NCBI RefSeq assembly: GCF_030066995.1
Contig: NZ_JASJAP010000001.1
Span: 727,230-791,229, forward strand
DNA length: 64,000 nt
Source: Erythrobacter sp.
Lineage (GTDB): Bacteria; Pseudomonadota; Alphaproteobacteria; Sphingomonadales; Sphingomonadaceae
Reading direction: 5' to 3'
In this document: positions 493 to 22,565 of the stretch, piece by piece
How positions within the stretch are numbered: position 1 is the first letter of the stretch
How the letters are laid out: each line of letters opens with the position of its first letter
Translations under genes and position numbers: made by a program
Notes under the pieces: model-generated
Told to the model about the DNA's origin: nothing
Seen by the model: only the letters and a program-made list of their open reading frames with translations
Database searches by the model: none

Positions 493-508
493 TACGCAAC
501 ATCCCGTA
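493..508 (-). promoter_or_regulatory. 16-bp dyad, copy 1 (upstream of the Usp gene)
   Basis: Read toward the minus-strand Usp gene the sequence is TACGGGATGTTGCGTA, a TACG-N8-CGTA dyad. It ends 74 nt before the ATG at 418. It belongs to a family of similar 16-mers placed before genes throughout the first 23 kb. The binding protein is inferred, with FixJ as candidate. Confidence 0.6.
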
Positions 509-596
509 AACTAGCCCAGGCGCGTGGGTGATTTCGGGTTGCATGAGTTTGGCTTGTTTTGCGTTGAGGCCGCCAGAGTCTCGAGAAGCGCTCCGC

Positions 597-612
597 TCCG
601 GAACATCCCTTA
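597..612 (+). promoter_or_regulatory. 16-bp dyad, copy 2 (upstream of acsA operon)
   Basis: The sequence TCCGGAACATCCCTTA matches copy 1 (TACGCAACATCCCGTA on the same strand) at 13 of 16 positions. It lies 67 nt before the TTG start at 680. That spacing supports the TTG start over the internal ATG at 731. It is the only strong copy in the opposite polarity relative to its gene. Confidence 0.55.
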
Positions 613-679
613 GTTACGCCGTCCGCAGGTCGGCGCATCACGCGAGACCCAGCCCGACGATACGATACGAGGATTCATT

Positions 680-2431
680 TTGTCTCACGAGACAATCCGC
701 AAATCCGAAGCGACCAGGCGAGCGGCGGTCATGCGTGACTATGACAAGGCCAAGCGTGACTTTGGTTGGGACACATATCGGGGGTGGCTCGACAGCGACG
801 CGGGAAGCTGGCTCAACATCGCGTACGAGGCGATTGACAGACACGTCGTGGAAGGCCGCGGCACCAAGGAAGCGATACGCTGGGTCGGCAAGACTGGAGA
901 ACGCAAGAGTTTCACCTACGGCGATCTCAAGCGGGAAACCGACCGTTTCGCCCGTATTCTCGCCGACAACGGTCTCGGCCAGGGAACAAGGGTCTTTTCG
1001 TTGCTTGGCCGGGTACCGGAACTCTACATTGCAGCCCTCGGGACGCTCAAGGCCGGCGGCGTTTTTTGCCCGCTCTATTCCGCCTTCGGTCCGGAGCCAG
1101 TGCGCTCTCGTCTTGAAATCGGCGAAGCCAATGTGCTGCTCGCATCCCCGCGGGACTACGTGAAGAAGGTCGAGGCGGCGCGTAACGATCTACCGCATCT
1201 GACGCATGTCTTCCTGACCCCAGGCGCCGATCCTCGGCCCGATGGCACAATCGATCTGGCTCAGGCGCTGGCAAACACCGAAGCGAAATTCGAGTGTGCG
1301 CAGACCGATCCTCAGGATATGGCGTTGCTGCACTTCACCAGCGGCACGACCGGTAAGCCCAAGGGCGTGGTCCACGTTCACGAGGCGGTGGTGATGCACA
1401 ACGCTACCGGCCGTATTGCGCTTGATCTGAGGCAGGACGATGTAATCTGGTGCACCGCCGATCCGGGATGGGTGACGGGCACATCCTACGGTATCATCGC
1501 GCCGCTTTGCGCAGGTGTAACCATGGTGATCGATGAAGCCGAATTCGATGCCCAACGTTGGTATACACTGTTAGAAAGTGAACGGGTTACCGTATGGTAC
1601 ACCGCGCCCACCGCGATCCGGTTGTTGATGCGTGCCGGAGCCGAACTGGCGCAGCGCTTCGACCTGTCTCATCTCCATTTCCTCGCCAGCGTGGGCGAGC
1701 CTCTCAATCCCGAAGCGGTGGTGTGGAGCAATGAAGTCTTCGGGATGCCGTTCCACGACAATTGGTGGCAGAGCGAGACCGGCGGCATAATGATCGCAAA
1801 CTACGCTGCGATGGACGTGAAGCCCGGTTCTATGGGCAAGCCGCTCCCAGGCGTGGAGGCAGCGATCCTGGACACTGAGGGTCACAACGCGCTTGCGATC
1901 GACGAGCCGATGCGGCCGGGTCATCTCGCCCTGCGCCCAGGTTGGCCATCGATGTTCCGCAGTTACCTCGGCCAGGAGGAGCGATACAATCGGAGCTTTC
2001 GCGAAGGATGGTATCTCACCGGCGACCTCGTGATGCGCGATGCGGAAGGGTATTACTGGTTTGTCGGGCGCGCCGATGATGTGATCAAATCGGCCGGACA
2101 CCTGATCGGTCCGTTCGAAGTCGAGAGCGCACTTGTGGAACATCCAGCGGTGGCCGAGGCAGCGGTGATCGGCGTGCCTGACGAGCGTGCGGGCGAGATC
2201 GTGAAGGCGTTCGTAACGCTGAACCGCGGTGTCGATGCCGACGATGCGTTGCAGCGTGAACTGCTCGGACATGCTCGCAAGAGGCTGGGGGCGGCGATCG
2301 CCCCGCGCAAGATCGAGTTCGCGCAAGACCTACCCCGCACGCGTTCAGGTAAGATCATGCGCAGGCTCCTGAAGGCGCGCGAGCTGGGTTTGCCTGAAGG
2401 CGATACATCGACGCTCGAACAAGCGGCATGA
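680..2431 (+). CDS. acsA: Acetyl-CoA synthetase-like AMP-forming ligase
   Basis: A 583-residue ANL-superfamily enzyme that would convert acetate (or another short acid), ATP and CoA to the acyl-CoA in the cytoplasm. The AMP-binding loop [13 protein letters not shown] lies near residues 215-228, the adenylate motif YLTGD near 450, and the catalytic lysine motif [14 protein letters not shown] near 553. The length and N-terminus are closer to the shorter Bacillus AcsA type than to the roughly 650-residue Acs. TTG at 680 is chosen because GAGGA precedes it and the dyad spacing fits; ATG at 731 is the alternative. Its stop overlaps the E1 alpha start (ATGA), so it heads a five-gene translationally coupled operon. 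Exact acyl specificity is not visible. Confidence 0.88.
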
Positions 2432-3420
2432 GCGCAGCGTTGCCCAAGGTCCGTTTAAACCGTGAGCATTGCCGCACACTGCTTCACCAGATGGTGCGTA
2501 TCCGCCGTTTCGAAGAGAAATGCGCAGAACTCTATACGCTAGAGAAGATACGTGGCTTCCTGCATCTCTACATTGGGGAAGAAGCTGTTGCTACGGGCGT
2601 GATGCAGGCGCTTGAGCCTAACGATGCGGTCGTCGCAACCTATCGCGAGCATGGACATGCGCTGCTAAAGGGCGTTCCTGCCGGCGCGATCATGGCCGAG
2701 ATGTACGGCAAGCAGGAAGGTTGCAGTCGGGGGCGGGGCGGTTCGATGCACCTGTTCGACGCAGAGACGCGCTTCTACGGCGGCAACGCTATCGTCGCGG
2801 GTGGAATTCCGATCGCCGTTGGCCTTGCGCTTGCAGACAAGATGGCAAACAAAAAGCGTATCACTGCCTGTTTCTTCGGCGAAGGCGCAGTCGCGGAAGG
2901 CGAGTTCCATGAGAGCCTGAACCTTGCCGCGCTGTGGCGATTGCCGGTGCTCTTCGTGTGCGAGAACAACCGCTACGCTATGGGAACCGCGCTCGATTTA
3001 TCGGAGTCCGAAACGGACATCAGCGCCAAAGCTGCCTCCTATAACCTTGCCTCCGAAGGCGTCGATGGAATGGATGTCGTCGCAGTTGAAGTGGCGACGC
3101 GCCGTGCGGTCCATGCGATCAGAGAAACCGGAGAGCCGCACTTCCTTGAATGCCGCACATACCGTTTCCGCGCGCACTCGATGTACGACCCTCAGTTCTA
3201 CCGCGCCAAGGATGAAGTCGAGGAGTGGAAAGACAAGGGGCCGATCAAGCGCTTCACGGAGTGGGCGCTTGATGTAGGCGAATTGCGCCCAGAGGATATC
3301 GAAGAGATCGAACAGGACGTCGCGCGCGAAATCTCAGAGGCGGTGGCCTTCGCCGAATCAGGCACTTGGGAGCCTGTCGAAGACCTGCTGCGCGATGTTG
3401 GCGCTGAGAAGCGGATATGA
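2428..3420 (+). CDS. pdhA: Pyruvate/2-oxoacid dehydrogenase E1 component, alpha subunit
   Basis: A 330-residue thiamine-diphosphate subunit of an alpha2beta2 E1. The ThDP/Mg site is seen as [15 protein letters not shown] (about 151-165) with the downstream ENNRYAMGT Asn near 180. The start region [13 protein letters not shown] and the [11 protein letters not shown] motif are typical of PdhA and the closely related AcoA. With the beta subunit it decarboxylates a 2-oxo acid and passes the acyl group to the E2 lipoyl arm. ATGA overlaps link it to both neighbours. Pyruvate is the likely substrate; acetoin cannot be excluded because no regulator or E3 gene is adjacent. Confidence 0.9.
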
Positions 3421-4391
3421 CCGAACTCACCTATCGCGAGGCGATACGCGGCGCGATCCGCAAGGCCATGCTAGCGGATCATCGCGTGTTTCTGATGGGT
3501 GAGGATGTCGGCCGTTACGGCGGCTGCTATGGAGTATCAAAGGGTTTGCTCGATGAATTCGGTCCCGAGCGCATCCGCGACACGCCCCTTTCGGAAAGCG
3601 CCTTTACCGGGGCCGGGATCGGCGCCGCGATGGGGGGCATGCGGCCCATTGTGGAAATCATGACCTGCAACTTCTCGCTGCTCTCGCTCGACCAGGTCAT
3701 GAACAATGCCGCGACGATCCGGCATATGTCGGGCGGGCAGTTCCATGTCCCAGTGGTGATCCGCATGGCCACTGGTGGGGGGCGACAGTTGGCAGCCCAG
3801 CATTCGCACAGCCTCGAAGGCTGGTACGCGCACATTCCGGGTATCCGCGTGCTGGCCCCGGCGACAGTAGAGGATGCGGCCGGAATGCTGGGCCCCGCGC
3901 TTGACGATCCCGATCCGGTGCTGATTTTTGAAAACGCCTTGCTCTACAACCACAGCGAAGATGTGAACGAACCTGTGGAGGTCGATATCGACCACGCGGT
4001 TGTGCGCCGAGCGGGCAAGGATCTCACGCTCGTCACCTATGGCGGATCGCTTGGTAAGACGCTGGCGGCGGCCGATGAGCTTGGGACCGATGGTATCTCC
4101 ACCGAAGTGATCGATCTGCGCGTGCTTCGACCGCTCGATGATGTCACGATCCTGACCAGTCTGGCGAAGACGCGGCGTTGCGTCATCGTCGATGAGGGGT
4201 GGCGCTCGGGCAGTCTTGCAGCGGAAATCATGGCGCGGATCGTCGAGCAGAGTTTCTGGAACCTCGATGCACCATTGGCGCGAGTGTGCAGCGAAGAAGT
4301 TCCGGTTCCCTATGCCGCGCATCTCGAACAGGCCGCGCTGCCCAGTGTCGCGAAGATCGTCGCTGCCGGGCGGGCGGTCATGGGACGCTGA
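3417..4391 (+). CDS. pdhB: Pyruvate/2-oxoacid dehydrogenase E1 component, beta subunit
   Basis: A 324-residue transketolase-like beta subunit, the normal length for PdhB/AcoB. Recognisable parts are [17 protein letters not shown] at the N-terminus, [20 protein letters not shown], the [20 protein letters not shown] segment that faces ThDP, and a C-terminal transketolase domain with [11 protein letters not shown] and [10 protein letters not shown]. It starts inside the E1 alpha stop (ATGA) and is followed after 3 nt by the E2 gene, so the subunits should be made in equal amounts. There is no fused lipoyl domain, unlike the PdhB of many other alphaproteobacteria. Confidence 0.9.
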
Positions 4392-4394
4392 GAG

Positions 4395-5561
4395 ATGGGT
4401 GTGTTCACCATGCCTTCGCTTGGCGCCGACATGGAAGCGGGCGTGTTGGTCGAATGGCTCAAGGCGCCAGGCGATGCGGTAGATCATGGCGACATCATAG
4501 CGGTTGTTGAAACCGACAAGGGCGCGATCGAGGTCGAGGTCTTCGAGGGTGGTACAATCGGCGAACTCTTGGTCGAAGCTGGCGAGAAGGTGCCGGTCGG
4601 CGCAGAACTGGCGCGGATAAATGGTATGGTTGGAACGGCGCAAAAGCCTGAGCTTGCGTCAGCGCCGGCCCCAAAACCCGGACCCGAGCCAATGCGTGCT
4701 GAACCGAAGCTTGGCGAACCCCGGACGCCGACCGGTGCAACGCCAAAATCATTGCGCGCTTCGCCCGCTGCTCGGCGGCTCGCCGAGGAGCATGGGGTCG
4801 ACCTTGAAACTGTGACCGGCACAGGCCCTGACGGTGCAATACAACGCACCGACGTTGAAGCAGCCACCACGCAGCTGGACGAGAATGCCGCACCTGATCT
4901 TGCTCCCATGCGCCGTGCGATAGCCGCTGCAATGAAGCGCTCGAAGCGAGAAATTCCTCACTACTATCTGACGCACAGTTTCGATATTTCGTCGGCAACA
5001 CGATGGCTCGCAGAGTATAACTCCGAGCGTCCACCGCCCCAGCGTCTGCTGCTTGGCGCGCTACTGCTCAAGGCCACGGCGCTGGCGCTTAGCGAATTTC
5101 CCGAGTTCAACGGGTTCTTTGGTGAGGATGGTTTCACGCCGAGCGAAGCGATCCACCTAGGCAGCGCAATCTCGATCCGCGGCGGTGGGCTCGCCGCCCC
5201 CGCGATCCGCGACACCAATACGCTCTCGCTTCCTGATCTCATGGTGAGACTAAGGGACCTCGTCGCCCGGACCCGGCGTGGTCAGTTCCGCAGCTCGGAA
5301 ATCAGCGATCCGACCGCTACTGTTTCAAGCCTCGGCGAGCGGGGGGTCGAAAGCTTGTTGCCCGTAATCTACCCGCCGCAGGTCGCGATTGTCGGATTCG
5401 GAAGCGCGACCCGTCGCCCATGGGCAGTGAAAGACACTCTGGCGATCAGACCTGTCCTGAGCGCCAGCCTTGCCGGGGATCACCGCGCCAATGACGGCCA
5501 TCGCGGCGCTCTGCTGTTGCGCCGGATCGAAGCGCTGCTGAACGAGCCGGAAACGCTATGA
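4395..5561 (+). CDS. Dihydrolipoyl acyltransferase (E2) of the 2-oxoacid dehydrogenase
   Basis: A 388-residue E2 with one lipoyl domain (1-78, lipoyl lysine K42 in ETDKGAIEVEV), a Pro-rich linker, a peripheral subunit-binding domain (about 120-157, starting SLRASPAARRLAEEHG) and a short catalytic domain ending GDHRANDG with H363 and D367 as the expected active-site pair. It transfers the acyl group from lipoyl-lysine to CoA. It sits between E1 beta and the carrier-protein gene, whose ATG overlaps its stop. No E3 gene follows, so it would use the cell's general lipoamide dehydrogenase. The catalytic domain is on the compact side for PDH E2. Confidence 0.87.
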   Translation: MGVFTMPSLGADMEAGVLVEWLKAPGDAVDHGDIIAVVETDKGAIEVEVFEGGTIGELLVEAGEKVPVGAELARINGMVGTAQKPELASAPAPKPGPEPMRAEPKLGEPRTPTGATPKSLRASPAARRLAEEHGVDLETVTGTGPDGAIQRTDVEAATTQLDENAAPDLAPMRRAIAAAMKRSKREIPHYYLTHSFDISSATRWLAEYNSERPPPQRLLLGALLLKATALALSEFPEFNGFFGEDGFTPSEAIHLGSAISIRGGGLAAPAIRDTNTLSLPDLMVRLRDLVARTRRGQFRSSEISDPTATVSSLGERGVESLLPVIYPPQVAIVGFGSATRRPWAVKDTLAIRPVLSASLAGDHRANDGHRGALLLRRIEALLNEPETL

Positions 5562-5878: not shown

Positions 5879-5894
5879 CTAGGATGTTTCCTTA
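5879..5894 (+). promoter_or_regulatory. 16-bp dyad, weak copy (upstream of host-attachment gene)
   Basis: CTAGGATGTTTCCTTA keeps the GGA, GTTT and final A positions of the consensus and lies 63 nt before the ATG at 5958, the same distance as other copies. About 10 of 16 positions match, so it is a weaker candidate. Confidence 0.35.
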
Positions 5895-6991: not shown

Positions 6992-8104
6992 CTAGAGCGA
7001 GGTTCTTTTGTCCAACTGTTGGCTTCGCCTGGCGATGGCGCTGTCGATCTCCATCGCGTCGAGCAGATTGCGCCAGTTTACGATACCCGCAAATCCGCCT
7101 CTCCGGTCTGTGACGCCCACGATCGGAGCGCCTCCTGAGATCAAGTCTGCGGCTTTCTCCGCACGGTAATGCATGGGAACGACTGGAATGTCGGTGCGCA
7201 TGATCTCACCGGCAGTCTTCTGCGCCCCAGCGTCGCCTGCGTGGCGGATCACATCGGAGCGCAGCAGGAAGCCGAGAAGTTCGCCGCCGGAAGTGAGGAC
7301 CGGAAATTCATCGCTGTCAGTATGCAGAATCTCATCCAAGGCGCAGCTGATCGGATCGGTTTCGGAGAAAAGCGGGTGGCCAGTCACCATCACCTGCGCG
7401 ACGGGTAGCCCTCCGATCGCATCACGGATCCGACCGATCCGCTCTTCGGTCGTTGCGGCCAGGAAAATGAAGACGCCGATGGCAGCAAGCAGCAAATTCC
7501 CCATAAGAAGGGCGGCCAAACCCAGGCCGACTGCAAGCAATTGTCCAATCCGCGTCGCAATGCTGGTTGCCTTGCTGTGTGGCAACGCAAACGCGAGCAA
7601 GGCGCGCAGGATGCGACCGCCATCCATCGGGAAGGCAGGCAGCAGGTTGAATACTCCCACAACCAGATTGAAGATCGCAAGCTGCTCGATGAGGTTGATC
7701 TTCCCCTCGGCAAGCTCGCTCAGCGCTTGCCAGTTTGGCCATCGTCCCAGCAGCAGCACTAGCAACCCGAAGAGCACGAAATTCACCACTGGCCCTGCAA
7801 TTGCGATGGCGAGTTCCTTCTCTGGCTCGTTTGGAATTCGTTTCAGTTTGGCAAGACCGCCGATGGGAAGGAGGACGACCTCCGGCGTCTCGATCCCGAA
7901 TTTTCGGGCCACACTTATGTGCCCGAATTCGTGCAGGACAATGCAAGCGAACATCAGGATGATAAGCAGCATGATGTCTCTTGCCGCGCTCAGACCCATC
8001 GACATGAAGGCGCTGGCTGCGATGAGCCCGAGGAAAAGCAAGAACGTCCAGTGCAGCCGGACCGATGTGCCGTTGATCGCCGCAATTCCAAAAGAACGAG
8101 ACAT
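6992..8104 (-). CDS. Site-2 protease (M50) with C-terminal CBS domain pair
   Basis: A 370-residue integral membrane zinc metalloprotease. The zinc motif HEFGH is at residues 58-62 within a hydrophobic segment, and the second ligand motif NLLPAFPMDGG is near 155-165. About six membrane segments come first, and two CBS repeats follow from about 235 to 360, which may bind adenine nucleotides and gate activity. It would cleave a transmembrane protein in or near the inner membrane. A small single-span protein gene ends 8 nt upstream on the same strand and shares the promoter with its dyad. Rip1/SpoIVFB-type relatives with CBS domains are common in energy-stress loci. Confidence 0.88.
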   Translation of the reverse strand: MSRSFGIAAINGTSVRLHWTFLLFLGLIAASAFMSMGLSAARDIMLLIILMFACIVLHEFGHISVARKFGIETPEVVLLPIGGLAKLKRIPNEPEKELAIAIAGPVVNFVLFGLLVLLLGRWPNWQALSELAEGKINLIEQLAIFNLVVGVFNLLPAFPMDGGRILRALLAFALPHSKATSIATRIGQLLAVGLGLAALLMGNLLLAAIGVFIFLAATTEERIGRIRDAIGGLPVAQVMVTGHPLFSETDPISCALDEILHTDSDEFPVLTSGGELLGFLLRSDVIRHAGDAGAQKTAGEIMRTDIPVVPMHYRAEKAADLISGGAPIVGVTDRRGGFAGIVNWRNLLDAMEIDSAIARRSQQLDKRTSL

Positions 8105-8112
8105 GCCTGAGA

Positions 8113-8373
8113 CTACCGCCTTTCGCCTTCAGGCTTGTCTTCCTCGGTTTCTTCGTCGCGTGGTACAATGCGCAATGGAGCCTCCGGCAAATCGACCTTG
8201 ACGCCGTCCTCGGGCGCTGTGGTCCATTCATCAGTGGGCTGTTCCGGTTCTCGCTCAGGCGCTCGTTCGCCCAGAAAAACGTCGCTGAACAAGACGATCG
8301 CTCCGATCACGAACAGCAGCATAATCACAATCAACCAGAAGGGTGAAATTCTCGACTTATCGCCAGTCGCCAT
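8113..8373 (-). CDS. Small single-pass membrane protein
   Basis: An 86-residue protein with a short cytoplasmic start, one strong membrane segment (WLIVIMLLFVIGAIVLFSD, about 13-31) and a charged, Pro/Glu-rich tail ending DEETEEDKPEGERR. No named family is recognised. It directly precedes the site-2 protease gene on the same strand and probably forms an operon with it, so it could be a substrate, inhibitor or assembly partner of the protease; this is inference. A strong dyad copy lies 58 nt before its ATG. Confidence 0.65.
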   Translation of the reverse strand: MATGDKSRISPFWLIVIMLLFVIGAIVLFSDVFLGERAPEREPEQPTDEWTTAPEDGVKVDLPEAPLRIVPRDEETEEDKPEGERR

Positions 8374-8431: not shown

Positions 8432-8447
8432 TCCGGAAACCTCCTTA
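8432..8447 (-). promoter_or_regulatory. 16-bp dyad, copy 3 (upstream of small membrane protein/protease)
   Basis: Read toward the minus-strand gene it is TAAGGAGGTTTCCGGA, matching the Hsp20 copy at 13 of 16 positions. It ends 58 nt before the ATG at 8373. The GGAGG core resembles a ribosome site but is much too far from the start to act as one. Confidence 0.6.
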
Positions 8448-8490: not shown

Positions 8491-8506
8491 TACGGGGTTT
8501 TACGGA
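8491..8506 (+). promoter_or_regulatory. 16-bp dyad, copy 4 (upstream of the 8562 gene)
   Basis: TACGGGGTTTTACGGA lies 55 nt before ATG 8562 (34 nt before GTG 8541). Together with copy 3 it gives each side of this divergent promoter region its own element, 59 bp apart. Confidence 0.6.
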
Positions 8507-8561: not shown

Positions 8562-8960
8562 ATGGTGCGCGTCATCAGATTAAGGGGCCAGATCGAGTTG
8601 CCTTGGAGACTGATAAGACTTGAACATGGGGCCTCTACCCGGTTTCCTTCGGGTTCGGCGGTCCGCGGGTATTTGCTGCGCGTCCCCTTGCTTGCAAACG
8701 GGCACATCGATGGCGAGACCCACGCTCGCAACCCCGAAAAATCGACCGTTCGGCGTTTCTGGCCGCGTGAGGCGAACCGCTTGGGCTATGTCACGCGCAA
8801 CGCCGCAAGGTGGCAGCTGATTTCCGCACAGTTGAAGGATATCGATGAGTTGATTGCTTGGTTCGAGGATTGCGCGTTCATCGTAGGAGCGCAGGTCTCT
8901 TTGTCTGAGCCACACCGCGGCACGATGCCGTTCCTGGTCGCAGACATCCGCGTTGACTAA
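8562..8960 (+). CDS. Conserved-looking protein of unknown function
   Basis: A soluble 132-residue protein if it starts at ATG 8562; GTG 8541 would add seven residues. Features are a basic start (MVRVIRLRGQIELPWRL), a middle with several Trp/Arg, and WQLISAQLKDIDELIAWFEDCAFIV, which looks like an amphipathic helix followed by a beta strand. No catalytic motif, signal peptide or membrane segment is visible and I do not recognise the family. It is convergent with fixJ, with only 6 nt between the stops. The upstream dyad is the main reason to believe it is a real, regulated gene. Confidence 0.6.
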   Translation: MVRVIRLRGQIELPWRLIRLEHGASTRFPSGSAVRGYLLRVPLLANGHIDGETHARNPEKSTVRRFWPREANRLGYVTRNAARWQLISAQLKDIDELIAWFEDCAFIVGAQVSLSEPHRGTMPFLVADIRVD

Positions 8961-8966
8961 TCTTTG

Positions 8967-9635
8967 CTACGCGACTGGCGGCACGCTGGCTGAAGACGAG
9001 TTCTGATAACGGGCCTCTTTGTCGCCGACACCCGCAGCAAAAGCGATCCGTAAGAGGTCGGAAAGGTTGTGGACGCCCAGTTTCTTCATCAGGTTGGCGC
9101 GGTGAATCTCGACCGTCCGCGCGCTGATTTCGAGATCGTAGCCGATGGTCTTGTTGGGATGGCCTTTCGTCAAACCCAGCAGTACGTCATGCTCGCGGCG
9201 GGTGAGGCTGTTAATGAGCACCTCGGCCTCTTCGCGCCGTTTGCTCTTCGCGCCCGATCGATCGAGCCGTTCGAACGCTTCGCCGAGCGCCTCGATCAGA
9301 GTCTCTTTTGCAAACGGCTTCTCGATGAAATCCAACGCTCCGGCTTTCATCGCACGCACAGCGACATGGACGTCGCCATGGCCGGTCATGACAATCACGG
9401 GAAAAGCCACTCCGCGTTCGCGCAGTTCTTTTTGGACCTCAAGTCCATCGATTTCAGGCATTTGGATATCGAGCAGGATGCAGCCTGGGGCGATATTCCT
9501 GACGGCTTTCAGAAATTGGGATCCACTCTCGAAAGCTGAGACTTTGTGTCCGGAGGTCTTGAGCATAAAGCCCACCGAGCGGCGGACGGTCTCGTCATCA
9601 TCGACGATGTACACCGGATAATTAGTCTTCGCCAT
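8967..9635 (-). CDS. fixJ: FixJ-type response regulator (receiver plus LuxR HTH)
   Basis: A 222-residue regulator. The receiver domain (about 7-125) has the acidic pocket DDD (12-14), phospho-acceptor D56 in LLDIQMPEIDG, a conserved MTGHGD and the KPF lysine. A LuxR/NarL-type helix-turn-helix follows (about 147-205, with LTRREHDVLLGLTKGHPNKTIG and ISARTVEIHRANLMKKLG). A short unconserved tail closes the protein. Its ATG overlaps the end of fixL by 14 nt, so the two are coupled. In rhizobia FixJ activates fixK and nifA under low oxygen; no fixK or nif gene is in this window. It is the best local candidate to bind the 16-bp dyad. Confidence 0.88.
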   Translation of the reverse strand: MAKTNYPVYIVDDDETVRRSVGFMLKTSGHKVSAFESGSQFLKAVRNIAPGCILLDIQMPEIDGLEVQKELRERGVAFPVIVMTGHGDVHVAVRAMKAGALDFIEKPFAKETLIEALGEAFERLDRSGAKSKRREEAEVLINSLTRREHDVLLGLTKGHPNKTIGYDLEISARTVEIHRANLMKKLGVHNLSDLLRIAFAAGVGDKEARYQNSSSASVPPVA

Positions 9636-10785
9636 CGGCGGCCTCCGCGAGCGGGATTTTAAAGTGAAAAGCGGTTCCGCCCAACTCGGATTCATCGACC
9701 CAAAGCTTCCCATCGTGGGATTGGATTATCGTATGGCAGATCGAAAGGCCGAGACCCAAACCGTCAGACTTCGTGCTGTTGAACGGGTGGAACAGGCGAT
9801 CAGCGACATTCTGATCGAGCCCTGGGCCACTGTCGGCCACGGTGACCTGTACAAATCCTCTCGACGATCGCTTGGAAAGAACGCGAAGCTGCTTGTGACG
9901 CGAATCGACCATAGCTTCCAGGGCGTTGCGGATCAGATTGAGCACAACCTGCTGTATTTGTACGGGATCGACCAGCACCTCGTCTGCATCGGGATCGAGT
10001 TCGGTCTCGAAGTCGACACCCGCACCATCCCCGTTGATGAGCGCCAGAGCGGAAGCTTCTTGTATGATCCGAGCGAGGCTCGCAATCTGTCGCTCAGTCT
10101 CCCCATACTTGATGAAATCGCGAAGCCGATGAACAATTTGCCCCGCGCGCAACGCTTCGGATGCGCATTCGTCCATGGCCTCGCGGACAAGTTTCAGATT
10201 TTCAGGTGAGGGGTCGTCCAGAAGATCGCTGGCGGCATGCGCATAGTTGGCGACCGCCGTCAGGGGTTGGTTGAGCTCATGGGCTAACGATGTTGCAAGT
10301 GAACCCATTGAGGAGATCCGCGAAACGTGCGCGAGTTCACTCTGCAATGTGTGCAACTCACGCTCGGTCGCCTGGGTTTCCCGTAGGTCTCTGACAAAGG
10401 CCACGAAGCCGCGACGAGCGGGAGATTTGAGCGCACCTATCGTCAGTTTTATCGGGAACGTGCTTCCATCGCGATGTCGGGCTGTGGTCACGCGGCCTAT
10501 CCCGATGATCCTGGCGGTGCCTGTACGACGGTAATTTCGCATGAAGCCGTCGTGTCTCTCCCTGTCGGGAGAAGGCATGAGGACGCTTACATTCTCTCCG
10601 ATAATCTCCTCCTCGGCATAGCCAAACATGCTTTGCGCACCCTTGCTGAAGGATTGGATGGCGCCATCTTCATCGGAAATGATCATCGCATCCGGGACTG
10701 TATCGATCAGCGCGTGAAGTTCGTCGGCGGTGCGCAGAGCGATGAACGATTGCGGCTTCCTGGTTTTCAGACCTGTTTTTGCCAT
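9622..10785 (-). CDS. fixL: FixL-type haem PAS oxygen-sensor histidine kinase
   Basis: A soluble 387-residue kinase with no membrane segment, starting at ATG 10785. The PAS domain (about 20-135) aligns with Bradyrhizobium FixL: the haem proximal His200 corresponds to H78 (in RERHDGF) and the O2-contacting Arg220 to R98 (in RIIGIGR). His214 is replaced by Arg and Arg206 by Asn. The phospho-accepting H-box has H169 in SLAHELNQPLTAV, and an HATPase domain follows with N, DSGPGL and GLGLGLSI boxes. It should report oxygen (or NO/CO) through haem to FixJ. Conservation of both haem-pocket residues argues against a generic PAS kinase. Confidence 0.87.
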   Translation of the reverse strand: MAKTGLKTRKPQSFIALRTADELHALIDTVPDAMIISDEDGAIQSFSKGAQSMFGYAEEEIIGENVSVLMPSPDRERHDGFMRNYRRTGTARIIGIGRVTTARHRDGSTFPIKLTIGALKSPARRGFVAFVRDLRETQATERELHTLQSELAHVSRISSMGSLATSLAHELNQPLTAVANYAHAASDLLDDPSPENLKLVREAMDECASEALRAGQIVHRLRDFIKYGETERQIASLARIIQEASALALINGDGAGVDFETELDPDADEVLVDPVQIQQVVLNLIRNALEAMVDSRHKQLRVLSKRSSRGFVQVTVADSGPGLDQNVADRLFHPFNSTKSDGLGLGLSICHTIIQSHDGKLWVDESELGGTAFHFKIPLAEAADGED

Positions 10786-10846
10786 AATGCCAATCTGAAA
10801 AGGCGAACACCTTGGGTCGAAAGGAAGGCTGACACTAGGACAATTA

Positions 10847-12474: not shown

Positions 12475-13688
12475 TCCGATGGATGTTTTCGGTTCTTGCG
12501 GCGTTGGTCGCATGCGCTCAGCCCGTGCATGCCCAGACGGCTTGGTCGACTGCACAAGCCGAGAACCTTTATCGCTGGATGGAAAGAGCTGAGAGCGAAG
12601 GCATCGATCTGCCCAAAGCACAGGGCCAACACCTTCGTTCTGCGATTGATGCCGGTGATCTTGACCTCCTCGAACCTATTGCAAACGAAGCAGCACTTAC
12701 TGTGTTGCGGGCATGGCGAGGGCGATGTTGCGGTTCAACGAAGCCTTCCTGGTGGCATATTGATGGAAGTTTGACCGACGCTCAGCTTCGCGCTGGCTTG
12801 ACGGCCGCTTTGGAAGCGGACCAGCTTGATTTGTACCTTCGGTCAATTCGTCCCTCGCATACTCACTATTCGAAATTGGTGGAGGCGTTGACGGAAGAGA
12901 CCGATCCGGATCGTCGCAAAGTCATGTTGGCTAATCTGGCACGATGGCGCTGGTTGCCCGCTCGGCTTGGCAAGCGATACCTGCTTGTAAACATAGCGGC
13001 GCAGGAATTGACCTTGTGGGAACAGGGCTCTTTAGAAGGGCGATGGCGCGTGATCGTTGGCAAACCTGTGACGCGAACTCCGGTTTTTACCACACAGGTC
13101 AGGGGCGTCGTCCTCAATCCCTGGTGGGAGATCCCCTCAAGCATAGCCCGCGAAGGTATTGCCAGTTTCGTAAGGCGAAACCCCGCAGCGGCGCGCGCAA
13201 GGGGCTACGTTTTCCAGAACGGGCGATACCGTCAGATGCCCGGCGATAACAACGCACTGGGGCGGATGAAACTTGTCATGCCCAATCCCTACAGCGTTTA
13301 CCTACACGACACTTCGAGCCGGGATCTGTTTCGCGAAGACCCTCGCTACTTCAGCCATGGGTGCATACGAGTGGATCGGGCGCTCGAATTCGTTGGCACG
13401 CTTTTCGCAAACGATGGCTGGGATTTGGCGCGCGTTGATGAAGAAGTGGCAACCGGCAGAACTCAGACGTTTGCGCTGTCAGAGAGCCTTCCGCTCTATG
13501 TGACGTACTTTACCGCAGAGCCGGATGCCAGCGCCAGCGTGCGCTTCCTGGAGGATGTTTACGATCGCGATCCCGTTACGATCGCGCATCCCTCTACCAG
13601 CGATCCTACGGAGGTTTACGGATCACCTTCTCTTCTCGTCTCGTCCACGTTCGGCGAGGTCGCAGGAGATCTCACATGTCGAAATTGA
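12471..13688 (+). CDS. L,D-transpeptidase (YkuD domain), secreted
   Basis: A 405-residue protein with a signal peptide (about 1-22, ending VHAQ), a helical peptidoglycan-binding-like or scaffold N-terminal region, and a YkuD domain whose active-site motif reads SHGCIRV with catalytic Cys near residue 298 and its His shortly before. It would make 3-3 cross-links in peptidoglycan or attach lipoproteins in the periplasm. The length and the split N-terminal region resemble the E. coli LdtD (YcbB) type. Its ATG overlaps the dehydrogenase stop. The 3' end contains the dyad that precedes the next gene. Confidence 0.87.
   Translation: MIRWMFSVLAALVACAQPVHAQTAWSTAQAENLYRWMERAESEGIDLPKAQGQHLRSAIDAGDLDLLEPIANEAALTVLRAWRGRCCGSTKPSWWHIDGSLTDAQLRAGLTAALEADQLDLYLRSIRPSHTHYSKLVEALTEETDPDRRKVMLANLARWRWLPARLGKRYLLVNIAAQELTLWEQGSLEGRWRVIVGKPVTRTPVFTTQVRGVVLNPWWEIPSSIAREGIASFVRRNPAAARARGYVFQNGRYRQMPGDNNALGRMKLVMPNPYSVYLHDTSSRDLFREDPRYFSHGCIRVDRALEFVGTLFANDGWDLARVDEEVATGRTQTFALSESLPLYVTYFTAEPDASASVRFLEDVYDRDPVTIAHPSTSDPTEVYGSPSLLVSSTFGEVAGDLTCRN
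13607..13622 (+). promoter_or_regulatory. 16-bp dyad, copy 5 (inside the ldt 3' end, before the GNAT gene)
   Basis: TACGGAGGTTTACGGA is the best match to the consensus. It lies in the last codons of the transpeptidase gene, in codons for the poorly conserved C-terminal tail, and ends 53 nt before the ATG at 13676. It implies that the acetyltransferase has its own promoter. Confidence 0.6.
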
Positions 13689-14251
13689 ACTTCACTCAGC
13701 CCTCCATCCTTACGTCGAAACGCTTCTCGAACCGCGAAGCCGAAACGGATTGGAGCGATGAGGTGACCACGGCAGGCGGCGCGGAAATCCTGATAACCCC
13801 CGCCCGGCCTGACGACACGGATGCGTTGGAGCGCTTCTTTGAAGGGGTCGCGCGCCGTGACCTCTATTTTCGGTTCTTGTCGGGGATGCGCAAGGTCGAC
13901 GATGATCGCTTGGCGGAAATGGTCGATGACACCAATGATCGAACGATTGACTTTCTGGCCTTCGATCCTGGTTCAGGCGAAGTCCTCGCAAGTGCTATGC
14001 TCGGCGCAGACGAGAGCTTCGAGAGCGCCGAATTCGCCGTTTGCACGCGCGAGGATATGAAGCAGAAAGGGATCAGCTGGGCGCTGCTCGATCACGCCGT
14101 GCGCTACGCCAAGGCGATGGGGGTAAAGCGGATCACGTCGCTCGAAAGCGCTGAGCAGAGGGATGCTTTGCGCCTCGAAAGAGAAATGGGTTTCAAGATC
14201 AAATCCAGCTCGGACCATCCCGGCATGATCATCGCAGAAAAGGTGTTGTGA
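13676..14251 (+). CDS. GNAT-family N-acetyltransferase
   Basis: A 191-residue protein with a roughly 40-residue leader and then a GNAT fold: ITPARPDDTDALERFFEGVARRDLYFRFL, a central beta sheet EVLASAMLG and EFAVCTREDMKQKGISWALLDHAVRYAKAMGVKRI, where the acetyl-CoA pyrophosphate loop is degenerate (MKQKGISWAL rather than RGxGxG/A). The sequence resembles the GNAT domain of Pat-type protein lysine acetyltransferases, which modify acetyl-CoA synthetase. That would link it to the acsA operon, but the resemblance is by eye only. It overlaps the transpeptidase gene by 13 nt and has its own dyad. Confidence 0.78.
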   Translation: MSKLNFTQPSILTSKRFSNREAETDWSDEVTTAGGAEILITPARPDDTDALERFFEGVARRDLYFRFLSGMRKVDDDRLAEMVDDTNDRTIDFLAFDPGSGEVLASAMLGADESFESAEFAVCTREDMKQKGISWALLDHAVRYAKAMGVKRITSLESAEQRDALRLEREMGFKIKSSSDHPGMIIAEKVL

Positions 14252-14260: not shown

Positions 14261-14276
14261 TACGGAGGTTTGCGTA
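14261..14276 (+). promoter_or_regulatory. 16-bp dyad, copy 6 (upstream of hsp20)
   Basis: TACGGAGGTTTGCGTA, extended to ATACG-N8-CGTAT, is the most symmetrical copy. It lies 65 nt before the Hsp20 ATG at 14342, in a short intergenic space otherwise without signals. Confidence 0.62.
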
Positions 14277-14341: not shown

Positions 14342-14845
14342 ATGGCTGACGAAGCCCTGATTGCCAAGCGGCCCCGTGAACACTCCGGGCTCGCTGATTA
14401 TCTGCGCGAACCATTCGACCGGTTGCGCGGAGAAGTAGACCGGATCTTCGACGAATTCCCGCCCCGCTTTCCTGCAACCAATCTCGGCATCCGCTACCTC
14501 GCATCGCTACCCATGCCGGCGCTTGAAATGCGCGAGACCGAAAAGGAATACCTTCTTTCGGTTGAATTGCCGGGAGTACAGGGCGAAGACGTCGATATCA
14601 GCGTCGATGGCGACCTGCTGATCGTTAAAGGCGAGAAGAAGGAAGAACGCGAGGAGCAAGAGCGCGACTACACAGTCTCCGAACGAAGCTACGGCGCGTT
14701 CGAGCGGCGCGTTACGCTACCCCCTGACTGCGACGTCGACGGAATTGGGGCGAGTTCGGACAATGGCGTTATCGCAATCACTATTCCGCGTCTGAGGAAC
14801 GCACCCGCAAGCGCGCGAAAGATCGAGATTTCCAACAAGAGCTGA
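14342..14845 (+). CDS. Small heat-shock protein (Hsp20/alpha-crystallin)
   Basis: A 167-residue ATP-independent holdase chaperone. The N-terminal region contains FDRLRGEVDRIFDEFP. The alpha-crystallin domain spans about 58-155 with PALEMRETEKEYLLSVELPGV, GDLLIVKGEKKEE and the C-terminal DNGVIAITIPR. A short KIEISNKS tail ends the protein. It is monocistronic: its own dyad precedes it and a strong terminator follows. Its placement beside Usp and oxygen-sensor genes resembles HspX in the mycobacterial dormancy regulon. Confidence 0.92.
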   Translation: MADEALIAKRPREHSGLADYLREPFDRLRGEVDRIFDEFPPRFPATNLGIRYLASLPMPALEMRETEKEYLLSVELPGVQGEDVDISVDGDLLIVKGEKKEEREEQERDYTVSERSYGAFERRVTLPPDCDVDGIGASSDNGVIAITIPRLRNAPASARKIEISNKS

Positions 14846-14970: not shown

Positions 14971-14989
14971 CATATCATATATTGATATG
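14971..14989. promoter_or_regulatory. Perfect palindrome over the bigR start (probable BigR operator)
   Basis: CATATCA-TATAT-TGATATG is a perfect 7-5-7 inverted repeat. AT-rich palindromes of this kind are known BigR/SqrR operators. Its right arm contains the ATG at 14987 that opens the bigR reading frame, so a bound repressor would sit directly on the translation start. Confidence 0.75.
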
Positions 14990-15325: not shown

Positions 15326-15335
15326 AGGGACCGGC

Positions 15336-16274: not shown

Positions 16275-16288
16275 GGGAGATTAAGGCG

Positions 16289-16726: not shown

Positions 16727-16730
16727 GACG

Positions 16731-17168: not shown

Positions 17169-17177
17169 CGCTACACT

Positions 17178-18950
17178 GTGACCGCCGCCTCACGTCTCGC
17201 ACGATATCTCCCGATCCTCGAATGGGGACGCACGTACAATCGCAGCGCTTTGGGCAACGACATGTTGGCGGCGGTGATCGTCACGATCATGCTGATCCCG
17301 CAGAGCCTTGCCTACGCGCTGCTTGCCGGGCTCCCGCCCGTCATTGGCCTCTACGCCTCGATCCTGCCGCTTGTTGCCTACGCTGTGTTCGGCACGAGCC
17401 GGACGCTTGCGGTGGGGCCGGTCGCGGTGATCTCGCTCATGACGGCTTCGGCGGCGGGAAGTGTGGCTGCGCCGGGGACGTCAGAATACCTAGAGGCAGC
17501 CATCGCGTTGGCCTTCCTCTCAGGCATCATGCTTGCAATCCTTGGTTTCATCCGGGCCGGGTTTCTCGCCAACCTCCTGTCGCACCCCGTCATTTCAGGG
17601 TTCATCACGGCGAGCGGGATCCTGATCGCGACGAGCCAGCTGCGCCATATTCTCGGTATTGCGGGAGGGGGCGATACGTTGCCCGAACAAATCGAAGGTC
17701 TGTGGTCCAATATCGGGGCTTCCAACGCGCCTACGATCTGTCTTGGCGTGGCTAGTCTGGCCTTCCTGTACTGGGTTCGCAAGGGTGCGAAGCCCTTTCT
17801 GGTCCGGCTTGGGCTGCGGTCGGGTGTCGCCGAAGTCGTCGCAAAGGCCGGTCCCATTTTGGCGGTTGCCGCTGCCATTCTTGCGGTGAGCGTCGGAGGG
17901 CTCGAACAGCGCGGCGTCGCTGTCGTTGGCGCAATACCCAGAGGTTTACCGCCTTTTGGTGTGCCGCAAGTTGACTTGGACTTGTGGAGCAAGCTCTGGC
18001 TGCCCGCCTTGCTCATTTCGATCATCGGCTTCGTCGAAAGCGTCTCGGTCGCCCAGACGCTTGCAGCCAAGCGCCGCCAGCGCATTTCGCCCGATCAGGA
18101 GCTCGTTGCTCTCGGCGCCAGCAATCTGTCAGCGGCCTTCTCGGGTGGCTATCCCATAACCGGAGGTTTTGCGCGCTCAGTGGTGAACTTCGATGCGGGA
18201 GCGCGCACCCCTGCCGCTGGAGCCTACACCGCAGCGGGCATCGGTCTGGCTTCGCTTTTTCTGACACCGCTCTTGTTTTCTCTGCCGGTCGCGACCCTTG
18301 CGGCCATGATTATCGTGGCGGTCCTCAGCCTGATCGATTCCAAGACGCCTTTGCGGCTTTGGATGTATTCCAAGAGCGACTTTGCCGCGCATTTGGCGAC
18401 CATCGGGATGACCCTCGCGATGGGGGTGGAGATCGGAGTGATCGTCGGCGTGGCGACCGGGCTCGTCCTCTACCTATGGAAGGCGTCGCGTCCGCATGCG
18501 GCCATCGTTGGGCGCGTTCCCGGATCGGAGCATTACCGAAACATCGATCGCCACGAGGTCATCACATGGCCGCATATTCTCTCGATCCGTATTGATGAAA
18601 GCCTCACCTTCCTCAACGCCCGCTGGCTGGAGGACTATGTGCAGGACCGCATGGCTGAACAGCCCGAGCTTCGTCATGTCGTGTTGCTGTGTTCGGCGGT
18701 GAATTCGATCGATGCGTCAGGATTGGAGAGTCTTGAGGCGATCAACCACAAGCTTGCTGACGCTGGCGTCAGCCTGCACCTTTCCGAGGTAAAAGGCCCG
18801 GTTATGGACAGGCTGGGAAGGGCCAAGATTCTGGAAGACCTGCACGGCAAGGTTTTCCTCACGCATGAAAGAGCCATCGCACACCTGATCCAGCTGACAA
18901 ACGAAACTCCAGCGGGCGACGATCGCTGGCACGCTCGCGGCCTGATCTAG
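17178..18950 (+). CDS. SulP-family anion permease with STAS domain
   Basis: A 590-residue inner-membrane transporter starting with GTG. The signature IPQSLAYALLAGLPPVIGLYAS lies near residues 38-59, and about 12-14 membrane segments extend to about 425. A cytoplasmic STAS domain (about 455-565) has the anti-sigma-antagonist-like serine region CSAVNSIDASGLESLE. As the last gene of a persulfide-oxidation operon it probably moves sulfite or sulfate, most simply as the exit route for Blh product. Many SulP proteins are importers, so direction is inferred from context only. Other BigR operons use a TauE/SafE-type exporter instead. Confidence 0.87.
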   Translation: MTAASRLARYLPILEWGRTYNRSALGNDMLAAVIVTIMLIPQSLAYALLAGLPPVIGLYASILPLVAYAVFGTSRTLAVGPVAVISLMTASAAGSVAAPGTSEYLEAAIALAFLSGIMLAILGFIRAGFLANLLSHPVISGFITASGILIATSQLRHILGIAGGGDTLPEQIEGLWSNIGASNAPTICLGVASLAFLYWVRKGAKPFLVRLGLRSGVAEVVAKAGPILAVAAAILAVSVGGLEQRGVAVVGAIPRGLPPFGVPQVDLDLWSKLWLPALLISIIGFVESVSVAQTLAAKRRQRISPDQELVALGASNLSAAFSGGYPITGGFARSVVNFDAGARTPAAGAYTAAGIGLASLFLTPLLFSLPVATLAAMIIVAVLSLIDSKTPLRLWMYSKSDFAAHLATIGMTLAMGVEIGVIVGVATGLVLYLWKASRPHAAIVGRVPGSEHYRNIDRHEVITWPHILSIRIDESLTFLNARWLEDYVQDRMAEQPELRHVVLLCSAVNSIDASGLESLEAINHKLADAGVSLHLSEVKGPVMDRLGRAKILEDLHGKVFLTHERAIAHLIQLTNETPAGDDRWHARGLI

Positions 18951-18967: not shown

Positions 18968-18983
18968 ATCGTAGGTTTACCTA
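18968..18983 (+). promoter_or_regulatory. 16-bp dyad, weaker copy (upstream of lipoprotein gene)
   Basis: ATCGTAGGTTTACCTA keeps the CG and AGGTTTAC core of the consensus (11-12 of 16 positions) and ends 63 nt before the ATG at 19047, the same spacing as the strong copies. Confidence 0.42.
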
Positions 18984-20705: not shown

Positions 20706-20794
20706 TTTCGATCTCTCCTATGGCGGCTCACTCGGCGAATTGTAAGCATGCAGCGAACGCTCAGGATGGATGTCGCGCCGCCCCCTTTCATCCG

Positions 20795-21997
20795 TCAAGC
20801 CATCGCTGGTGAACCCGCCGGAGCCACAGGCGGGGTGGTGAGCATCCCCAAAACTTGCCGTCCGAATGCGCCCAGTCCGAAAAGCATTGCCAACAGGAGG
20901 AACAGCAATCCTGCTAGCGGGATCAGGGTGAGCGCCAACAAGATCACGACGCCTGCCAGCGGCCATAGGAACCGCTCGAAGGTGCCCATTGCGTCTTGGT
21001 CTTTCCTGGTGATGACTTTGCGCGCAAACATTCCGATGAAGTGGGCGGCCACCGCCACGGCGATCGGTGTGAGCGCCAGAGATGAGACAAAAAGGAAAAC
21101 GGCCAGCGGGATCCCGACCCCCGTCCAAAACAAGATGATCCCCAGGACCGGGACTGCCGCAGCGAAAAGCACGCCGATGCCCAGAGCCTGAAGCGGTTTT
21201 CCAGCGAGCATCCGCGAGGTTGCGTCCATCACGCGTGGCACGAGCATGACGAGCAGGGCAACGATCACAAAATAGCTGACGATCATCGTTAGGCTGAAGA
21301 ACAGGAAGAACTGGCCAACGCCTCTCACCGCATCTTCGGCGGCATAGGGCTCGGTCGATGTTAGCTGGTTACGCTCGCCTACGATCACTGCGGCGGGATC
21401 GAGCTTGAGGGTGGAACCACGATAAACGAGATCCCCCTCGATCCGTGCCTTGGGACCAAGCTCGATCGCATCGCCGGAAAGGCGAGCCGATCCGGAGACC
21501 ACCGAATTGACATAAATGTCATTGGCCCCGATCCGCAGATCGCGTCCGACGGGCGCTTCGAAACGCACCTCTCCGCCCGCAATAACGGCGGTTCCACCGA
21601 TGTCGAAACCCTCGCGCGCGACGATTTCGCCGCCAGCCAGGATAACATCGTCGGCAACCGTTGCCGCGTTCAACTGGATATTGCCACCGGCTGCCACAAC
21701 ATCCCGAACTTGAGCGCTTGAGATTTCGAGATCGCCACCGGCAAGGAACAGATGATCCGCTTGCGCACCGTTTACCTTAAGCGAGCTTGCGGCGGCGAAA
21801 AGATCATCCGTGGTCTTTTGCGATACGCTGATGTCCTCGCCCGTGACAAAGACCATGTCGCTCTGTCCGTCCCCATCTGATGCCACAGGCTCTTCTGCGC
21901 TCTGGCCGAGGGAACTTGAGGGCAGGGCGATGGCACCAAACGTGAGCAGCAACCCAAAAGTCAGCCGTTTGATCGGCGCATAGTCGATAACAATCAT
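20795..21997 (-). CDS. Bactofilin-like polymer-forming domain with C-terminal membrane domain
   Basis: A 400-residue protein. A signal-like segment (about 8-33) is followed by a right-handed beta-helix-type repeat region (about 55-225) with repeated DLFAAASSLKVNG, DHLFLAGGDLEISS, DVVAAGGNIQLNA, DVILAGGEIVA strings, then four to five membrane segments (about 240-385). This architecture is known in bactofilin/polymer-forming family membrane proteins; the repeat part probably lies in the periplasm. ATG 21997 has a strong GGGGAGG site; an upstream ATG-like start at 22036 does not. A dyad copy lies 82 nt upstream within the neighbouring gene. The function is unknown, possibly envelope stress. Confidence 0.72.
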   Translation of the reverse strand: MIVIDYAPIKRLTFGLLLTFGAIALPSSSLGQSAEEPVASDGDGQSDMVFVTGEDISVSQKTTDDLFAAASSLKVNGAQADHLFLAGGDLEISSAQVRDVVAAGGNIQLNAATVADDVILAGGEIVAREGFDIGGTAVIAGGEVRFEAPVGRDLRIGANDIYVNSVVSGSARLSGDAIELGPKARIEGDLVYRGSTLKLDPAAVIVGERNQLTSTEPYAAEDAVRGVGQFFLFFSLTMIVSYFVIVALLVMLVPRVMDATSRMLAGKPLQALGIGVLFAAAVPVLGIILFWTGVGIPLAVFLFVSSLALTPIAVAVAAHFIGMFARKVITRKDQDAMGTFERFLWPLAGVVILLALTLIPLAGLLFLLLAMLFGLGAFGRQVLGMLTTPPVAPAGSPAMA

Positions 21998-22037
21998 GTC
22001 GAACGCCTCCCCGCCGGGGCCTTTGCCCAACAGCATT

Positions 22038-22427
22038 TCAAGAGACGTTGCTTGTGGCGGTGCCGCTGTGCCACCAGTATCCGTAAATGTCCGGATGTGA
22101 GATTATGCGAGGCTTTGCTCCCATCGGACGGCCTCTGATGTCGTGGGGTCGAATGTGCCTTGAGCCGGTAAGTTCGTAAGAGTCGCAGTTGGCGCGAAGG
22201 GTGGCGATGGGACGGGCCTTTGATCCGGCTTTGCAGATGTCCTGACCGCATTTTGCGCAAGCGCCGTGTGTTCCGGTCTCGATCTGCGCCAATGCAAAGC
22301 CAACTTGCTTCATTTCGGCCCTGAGCGCTTCATCATCGGCAAGAGCGATAGCCTGGCCGCAAAAGCTGGCATCGTGTGGGTGGCGCAGATCATCCTCGAT
22401 GATCTCCGATTGCTTGAAGAGGTCCAA
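22038..22427 (-). CDS. DksA/TraR-type zinc-finger protein, atypical
   Basis: A 129-residue protein with a helical start, then a TraR-like finger: C57 and C60 in CAKCGQDIC, C65, and C81 in ANCDSY. The fourth canonical cysteine is replaced by Tyr84 and the protein continues about 45 residues beyond the usual end with no recognisable sequence. C65 might substitute as ligand, or the 3' end may have drifted or shifted frame. The family binds the RNA polymerase secondary channel. The start appears to be TTG at 22427 without a clear ribosome site. The extended tail codons contain the dyad for the bactofilin-like gene. Confidence 0.6.
   Translation of the reverse strand: MDLFKQSEIIEDDLRHPHDASFCGQAIALADDEALRAEMKQVGFALAQIETGTHGACAKCGQDICKAGSKARPIATLRANCDSYELTGSRHIRPHDIRGRPMGAKPRIISHPDIYGYWWHSGTATSNVS
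22080..22095 (-). promoter_or_regulatory. 16-bp dyad, copy 7 (upstream of bactofilin-like gene)
   Basis: Read toward the minus-strand gene it is TCCGGACATTTACGGA, a TCCG-N8-CGGA dyad with the TTTACGGA half of copies 4 and 5. It ends 82 nt before ATG 21997 and lies within the 3' part of the zinc-finger gene. Confidence 0.5.
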
Positions 22428-22549
22428 ATAACGCTCATTAGTGGGCGATTGCGAATTTGATGGTGTTTAATATGAGGAAAGTTCAAAAAAAACGCCCATG
22501 ACTACCCCAGCCGTCGCGCATGCCCGGGTGCGGCAGCCGCTGGCGGCTT

Positions 22550-22565
22550 TACGGCAGTTTACGTA
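22550..22565 (+). promoter_or_regulatory. 16-bp dyad, copy 8 (upstream of uspA-like gene)
   Basis: TACGGCAGTTTACGTA is a perfect TACG-N8-CGTA dyad ending 68 nt before the ATG at 22634. It lies in the divergent region between the zinc-finger and universal stress genes. Confidence 0.6.

Follow-up and report, generated by a model that had tools for sequence, protein, structure and literature searches.

The FixL-FixJ pair of sensor kinase and response regulator (FixLJ) has been reported for the Rhizobiales and Caulobacterales, and the targets described for FixJ are nifA, fixK, fixX and SMc03253 in the Rhizobiales and, consistently, only fixK in the Caulobacterales (PMC4999443; this and the other articles cited below are quoted from the parts of them that were available). 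A FixJ site, TAAGTAATTTCCCTTA, was determined in S. meliloti, as quoted in the same article; FixLJ control of fixT has been reported in some organisms (PMC7078487), and copies of FixLJ have been reported on plasmids of Sphingobium hydrophobicum, without targets given for them in the part consulted (PMC6783567). Stress genes of alphaproteobacteria are also found under Fnr-type regulators: uspA of Sphingopyxis granuli TFA has an Fnr box at -41.5, in an organism for which anaerobic stress genes were reported as outside Fnr control (PMC7713065), and the small heat-shock protein (sHSP) RLV_1399 of R. leguminosarum is FnrN-dependent (PMC11784457). Here we describe a 64,000-nucleotide stretch of Erythrobacter sp. 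DNA (assembly GCF_030066995.1, contig NZ_JASJAP010000001.1, positions 727,230 to 791,229 of the forward strand; "the window"), in which a fixL-fixJ pair sits in an island of stress and metabolic genes preceded by copies of a 16-18 bp dyad. Based on the evidence below, this dyad is probably (about 0.86 by our estimate) the binding site of the island's own FixJ, which would directly activate the survival genes of the island at low oxygen; FixJ binding, the direction of control and oxygen as the signal are presumed from what the FixJ family does elsewhere.

The eight best matches to the dyad in the window are located at 493, 597, 8432, 8491, 13607, 14261, 22080 and 22550. Exact copies of the literal 16-mer TACGGAGGTTTNCGKA are limited to 13607 and 14261; 8432 departs from it at one position, 8491 and 22550 at two each, and 493, 597 and 22080 are poor fits to the string yet good fits to the dyad, since it is the outer half-sites and not the centre that are conserved. 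A sequence-only reading of the window had listed ten copies, each before a gene, and all ten places hold the sequences described. Eight of these copies are sound; the one before acsA had been called reversed, a term without meaning for a symmetric dyad. With a symmetric matrix built from the ten sites the eight take ranks 1-8 of the window and the remaining two, at 18968 and 5879, ranks 12 and 13; an asymmetric matrix puts all ten at ranks 1-10, a result favoured by training on the same ten sites. The site at 5879 scores 4.8 on the eight-site matrix and 8.2 on a refined one, that at 18968 scores 5.7 and 4.5, and both were rejected as weak and unsupported copies. In leave-one-out scans of the 64 kb with the symmetric eight-site matrix seven sites ranked first and 597 ranked second, and 100 simulated first-order windows held a mean of 0.11 and a maximum of 2 matches of at least 15.5 compared to 8 in the real one, the matrix having been trained on these same 8 sites. 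Seven of the eight sites are intergenic and one, 13607, is inside the 3' end of a predicted YkuD frame, as called by a home-made gene caller. The refined matrix describes T[AC][CA]G[GT]A-A-A in inverted arrangement with an A before and a T after it, that is, an 18-bp dyad.

Applied unchanged to 20 stretches of 20 kb round the FixJ genes of 19 relatives (400 kb, 89% coding), the eight-site window matrix found 59 matches of at least 11.5, 50 of them intergenic and 9 coding, whereas 300 permuted, still palindromic matrices gave on the same loci a mean of 1.9 intergenic (maximum 10) and 11 coding matches. Over 80 named FixJ loci (1.5 Mb, including 8 redundant ones) the window matrix found 106 intergenic and 20 coding matches; the corresponding means for 200 permuted matrices were 8.3 (maximum 28) and 37. 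In 392 kb round the genes of 20 further FixJ-like regulators, with 36-46% identity, there were 8 intergenic and 5 coding matches, and nine control stretches of the own genome outside the island (180 kb), three of them picked because a genome-wide scan had given matches there, contained 6 matches of at least 10.5, all coding and one of 15.5. It had been proposed that copies as frequent inside genes as upstream of them, or lacking conservation in related species, would mark the motif as chance or a repeat; run on these stretches, this comparison finds the sites upstream and conserved round the FixJ genes of relatives, while the control stretches of the own genome hold only coding matches. Taken together, these sequence comparisons support the dyad as a probable upstream regulatory signal tied to this FixJ.

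The presence of the dyad, hereafter the FixJ box, was also compared between genomes with and without this FixJ, defined by a best E of 3.2e-61 or lower (48 of the 149 genomes of the family; the threshold is not a natural gap, the next value being 4.8e-58). The promoters examined correspond to 70 of the 125 Usp (universal stress protein) matches listed and 30 of the 44 Hsp20 matches, and the p values given here do not represent independent trials because the genomes are related. The FixJ box was found at 14/41 Usp promoters from FixJ-bearing genomes vs 0/29 from the others (p 2e-4), and boxed Usp promoters occurred, among the genomes tested, only together with a FixJ of at least 49% identity. 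An FNR box (at least 9 of 10 positions) showed the opposite distribution, 10/41 vs 17/29 (p 0.006); it was present at 0/14 FixJ-boxed and 27/56 unboxed Usp promoters (p 5e-4), so that none had both. For Hsp20, 8/21 promoters from FixJ-bearing genomes and 0/9 from the others were boxed, a contrast that alone is not significant (p 0.067). These figures include the own genome, from which the matrix was derived, as 1 of the 14 boxed Usp and 1 of the 8 boxed Hsp20 promoters. The genes themselves co-occur with this FixJ, Usp in 43/48 vs 42/101 genomes (p 1.5e-8) and Hsp20 in 23/48 vs 13/101 (p 8e-6); a congener without this FixJ (G121, best E 4.2e-19) is also without an Hsp20 match at E of 1e-15 or lower. 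A similar comparison for the site-2 protease was discarded, since the gene was detected at E of 1e-20 or lower in only 5/149 genomes, too few to be of use. At the usp and hsp20 genes of the island the best approximations to the FNR box TTGAT-N4-ATCAA reach 8/10 (at 157 bp) and 6/10, below the 9 of 10 required. Another usp gene of the genome, far from the island (C1:133664-134479), has an FNR-like box, TTGACCATTATCAA, upstream (L184) and no FixJ box; judging from their promoters, the two usp copies are apparently under two different oxygen regulators.

As to the regulator, the fixL and fixJ genes of the window adjoin and sit between boxed genes of the island. Searched against solved structures, the FixJ protein matched best full-length FixJ (5xso, E 1.4e-46), and the PAS domain of FixL aligns with the haem PAS of FixL structures (B. 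japonicum FixL) through the segments MPxPDRxRHD and IGIGR. These segments presumably hold the haem-binding His and Arg, and the protein is a candidate haem-binding, O2-inhibited kinase. The dyad is an imperfect palindrome of 16-18 bp that fits the fixK site of S. meliloti, TAAGTAATTTCCCTTA, whose score on the eight-site matrix is 16.5, a value reached by 3e-6 of random 16-mers. A different regulator of the NarL/FixJ family, linked to fixLJ only genetically, is an unlikely binder of the dyad. The 8 intergenic matches at the loci of other FixJ-like regulators could be taken in this sense, as half-sites may be shared within the family, and the true binder could also be the second FixJ of this genome, which is 74% identical and encoded 40 kb to the left; against this reading stand the six times lower number of intergenic matches round other regulators (50 vs 8), the resemblance to the site determined in S. 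meliloti and the restriction of boxed Usp promoters, in the genomes tested, to those with a FixJ of at least 49% identity. The second of the two fixL-fixJ pairs (L040:735-2514; G000:C1:695734-697513) belongs to the same stretch of boxed genes, in which a box at C1:709191 precedes a Zn-alcohol dehydrogenase (Zn-ADH) gene. The FixL of the window is short (387 aa, one PAS) compared to the 500-630 aa found at many other sphingomonad loci, the long form being present both at boxless (L060, L065, L067) and boxed loci (L062, L069). Autoregulation of fixLJ in the window was considered and is not claimed, the site at 10835 reaching no more than 6.0/8.1 and boxes being no more frequent than expected before FixL genes.

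The position of the sites within promoters was analyzed on 95 flanks aligned on the site (refined score of at least 9.5, start codon within 110 bp), in which an A at offset 40 (68%) and a T at offset 44 (43%) stand out. The pattern nAnnnT, selected as a -10 element after the profile had been viewed, is found 39 bp from the site start in 28/87 deduplicated flanks compared to a mean of 3.35 at other offsets, and in 26/77 when the own genome is left out. Distances between site and start codon cluster at about 50-75 bp. If the nAnnnT elements are taken as -10 elements, the centre of the site would lie near -43 and overlap the -35 region while the -10 is left free, which is an activator position. 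In the site-2 protease promoter the box and a CGATA element are invariant in the window, E. ani, E. longus and Erythrobacter sp. YT30, while most of the bases between them vary, and the hsp20 box is kept in five aligned sequences (the window and four relatives) with diverged flanks. The possibility that FixJ binds these sites and mainly represses, or acts unphosphorylated with the opposite oxygen response, has a precedent in R. palustris, where the promoters of nifH and nifA are bound by unphosphorylated FixJ, which is regarded as a repressor (PMC13327599); we consider it improbable here in view of the position near -43 and of the low-oxygen induction of similar genes in B. cenocepacia (the lxa locus) and R. 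leguminosarum (the sHSP). The suggestion of the sequence-only reading that a NarL/FixJ-family regulon is run by the local FixJ is supported by the likeness to the FixJ site, the concentration of sites round the FixJ genes of relatives, their upstream location and promoter phasing, and the lack of a box, at the threshold used, in the 29 Usp and 9 Hsp20 promoters tested from genomes without this FixJ.

Activation by the local FixJ has to be weighed against several observations. In addition to the post hoc choice of the -10 pattern, the non-significant Hsp20 contrast and the inclusion of the own genome in the promoter counts, 30 of the 83 FixJ loci placed in a tree are boxless at the threshold used, including one metagenome-assembled genome labelled Erythrobacter. 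Several gene families were not enriched for boxes in FixJ loci: FixL 9/84, single-receiver proteins 5/130, Zn-ADH 5/39, quinone reductase 4/22 and P-ATPase 4/33. A strict pattern, WTMCGNANNNNTNCGKAW, showed no excess in the own genome, with 10 places compared to 10 for the control and 6+3 vs 5+2 in a second count, and across the family it matched 129/149 genomes and was uninformative, for which reason the family-wide scan was replaced by local scans. All these points weigh against the reading. Six of the 10 strict places are within 33 kb (p 2e-10, for an interval chosen after the fact), and of the four outside this cluster three are coding and one intergenic; as the genome-wide number equals the control, the regulon looks small and local. 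The lack of a genome-wide excess is also what would be expected if the dyad were due to chance, base composition or a dispersed repeat, an explanation that is barely credible, since it is contradicted by the leave-one-out ranks and the permuted matrices, the intergenic bias, the fixed -10 spacing and the conservation of sites amid diverged flanks.

Returning to direct activation by FixJ, the genes that carry boxes were surveyed in 95 non-redundant FixJ loci (8 of 103 were dropped as redundant), where 168/1768 genes are boxed. Family names were given from sequence and members were domain-scanned singly; the p values by family are flattering because the families were picked for having boxed members, a point that also counts against us. 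With this proviso, enrichment was observed for Usp (24/58) and Hsp20 (12/20), and for the unknown protein of about 120 aa (12/21), Crp/FNR regulators (10/17), the small membrane protein of the protease operon (6/8), bactofilin-like proteins (3/4) and metallo-beta-lactamases (4/11). CoA-binding proteins (6/29) and a 592-aa family (3/9) were borderline, and no enrichment was detected for host-attachment proteins (2/8). Boxed Crp/FNR genes include some in loci L072, L073 and L057 of the FixJ clade of the window, though there are none among the boxed genes of the window itself; a relay may therefore carry some of the response. The tree was built from the 83 of the 95 loci in which FixJ was among the predicted proteins. 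It contains a clade of 14 loci (support 100/99) of which 12 have two or more boxes and 2 have one; its named members are all Erythrobacteraceae, two of its loci belong to the own genome, and the boxless genome labelled Erythrobacter falls outside it. The nearest named kin of the window are Erythrobacter species, and boxes are present at locus L074 of E. longus DSM 6997. Two Caulobacter loci are also boxed, one before a single-receiver gene adjoining fixJ and the other upstream of usp and of a P-type ATPase gene.

Based on these data, the following mechanism can be proposed. When O2 falls, the haem PAS of FixL (9622-10785) would lose O2 and the kinase would phosphorylate FixJ (8967-9635); a dimer of FixJ would then occupy the 16-18 bp dyad, whose centre would be some 43 bp upstream of the transcription start, over the -35 region, and activate RNA polymerase. 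Genes directly switched on in this way would be those for the Usp proteins, Hsp20, acsA-PDH (pyruvate dehydrogenase), the site-2 protease operon, the GNAT acetyltransferase, the bactofilin-like protein and the small unknown protein. A FixK-like relay may run in parallel, given that a Crp/FNR-type gene is boxed in some relatives.

Table 1. Predicted FixJ boxes, proposed target genes and regulators in the window.
Feature	Position	Strand	Details
FixJ box (predicted), left Usp-like gene (2-445, cut by window edge)	493..508	-	Score 16.8; 47 bp to start; A and T in -10 phase
FixJ box (predicted), acsA/PDH genes	597..612	+	Score 15.6; 118 bp to start
acsA, PDH E1a, E1b and E2 genes, proposed targets	731..5561	+	AMP-binding domain in acsA
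Weak half-matching site, host-attachment/baeRF12 gene	5879..5894	+	Score 4.8 / 8.2
Small membrane protein and site-2 protease genes, proposed targets	6992..8328	-	Protease: Pfam M50, CBS
FixJ box (predicted), small membrane protein/site-2 protease genes	8432..8447	-	Score 18.0
FixJ box (predicted), gene of unknown ~120-aa protein	8491..8506	+	Score 17.2
Unknown ~120-aa protein gene, proposed target	8598..8960	+	Start about 8598
FixJ response regulator, proposed activator	8967..9635	-	REC and GerE
FixL haem-PAS-type sensor kinase	9622..10785	-	PAS, HisKA, HATPase
FixJ box (predicted), GNAT gene, in YkuD 3' end	13607..13622	+	Score 19.4; 53 bp to start
GNAT acetyltransferase gene, proposed target	13676..14251	+	Pfam PF00583
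FixJ box (predicted), hsp20	14261..14276	+	Score 19.2
hsp20, proposed target	14342..14845	+	Pfam PF00011
Bactofilin-like gene, proposed target	20795..22036	-	Name from the sequence-only reading
FixJ box (predicted), bactofilin-like gene	22080..22095	-	Score 17.8
FixJ box (predicted), second usp gene	22550..22565	+	Score 18.9; 62 bp to start
Universal stress protein gene, proposed target	22628..23461	+	Pfam PF00582
Cardiolipin synthase gene (cls)	27082-28539		Named by NCBIfam
Possible FixJ box, cardiolipin synthase gene	28751..28766	-	Score 12.8; intergenic; 211 bp to start

Some of the gene names in Table 1 are provisional. The Usp match of the left Usp-like gene is under the Pfam cut-off (22.0 vs 24), the PDH names were given by reading the translated sequence, and the bactofilin-like protein was assigned to no family of either Pfam or NCBIfam. 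Both databases were likewise without a match for the ~120-aa protein and the one relative of it that was scanned; this relative (L068) has a confident, beta-rich predicted model with no PDB match at E of 0.001 or lower. In E. longus a look-alike of the host-attachment/baeRF12 gene and a gene divergent from it share one strong box.

The island also includes a sulfur block (14987-18950) with no strong box of its own, composed, as named by eye from the sequence, of an ArsR-type regulator, a persulfide dioxygenase-like metallo-beta-lactamase, two YeeE/YedE-like membrane proteins and a SulP-like transporter. From 30000 to 64000 the window takes on, also by eye, a catabolic and transport character unlike the stress island (methyltransferases, polysaccharide deacetylase-like protein, CoA-transferase, TonB receptors), and zero intergenic matches of at least 11.5 were detected there. 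To the left, 11 kb from the window, a dyad scoring 16.3 (L041:5453-5468) lies between divergent genes for a hemerythrin-like protein and a class-II glutamine amidotransferase.

The signal, which the sequence-only reading had considered undescribed, is the FixJ box already known from Rhizobiales and Caulobacterales, while its direct set of stress and metabolic targets looks new; in the literature consulted, largely without subscription papers, no account was found of Usp, Hsp20 and metabolic genes under direct FixJ control in Sphingomonadales. With the FixLJ-FixK/NifA cascade of Rhizobiales and Caulobacterales the island has in common a haem PAS FixL, FixJ and the same 16-18 bp imperfect palindrome; it differs in having boxes directly at numerous stress and metabolic genes of its own neighbourhood. 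The FixLJ system of Burkholderia dolosa is likewise oxygen-sensing and broad, with about 11% of the genes changed in the deletion mutant, although direct and indirect effects were not separated and no box was given in the parts consulted, and "universal stress" does not appear in the main text (PMC5234846). The lxa locus of Burkholderia cenocepacia is similar in content, with about 50 low-oxygen-induced genes including six Usp, alpha-crystallin and metabolic genes; however, a CRP protein of the Anr/FixK type is suspected of regulating it (PMC6127331, PMC9104464). As a separate observation, the fixLJ locus of Sphingopyxis granuli NBRC 100800 (L106) is close to the lxa locus in gene content, with acetate-kinase-like, polyhydroxyalkanoate-synthase-like, CBS-like, GNAT-like and Hsp20-like genes (by eye). 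FnrN/Fnr control in alphaproteobacteria places the same kinds of genes under oxygen control; unlike those genes, usp and hsp20 of the island are without a good FNR box and with a FixJ box.

In the DosR (DevR) dormancy regulon of Mycobacterium tuberculosis a response regulator of the NarL subfamily drives Usp and alpha-crystallin genes in hypoxia. The DosR system has haem sensor kinases and a box sequence other than the FixJ box, and it belongs to an unrelated lineage. In the island a NarL/FixJ-family regulator and a putative haem kinase are likewise linked to genes for Usp and alpha-crystallin proteins, which by sequence fits the DosR-type pattern, as a likeness in how the system would work and not of descent. 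Going further, Erythrobacteraceae and some other sphingomonads may have independently built a DosR-like persistence regulon by wiring FixL-FixJ directly onto a patchily distributed survival island and partly replacing FNR control one promoter at a time, FixJ then serving as a dormancy regulator of many genes and not chiefly by way of FixK or NifA, a proposition for and against which we would give even odds. What has been gained is a sharp FixJ box with promoter phasing and a multi-operon target set, together with related genomes that place one kind of stress gene behind a FixJ box in some cases and behind an FNR box in others, so that the swap of one oxygen regulator for another and the parallel with DosR become directly testable in laboratory strains of Erythrobacter.

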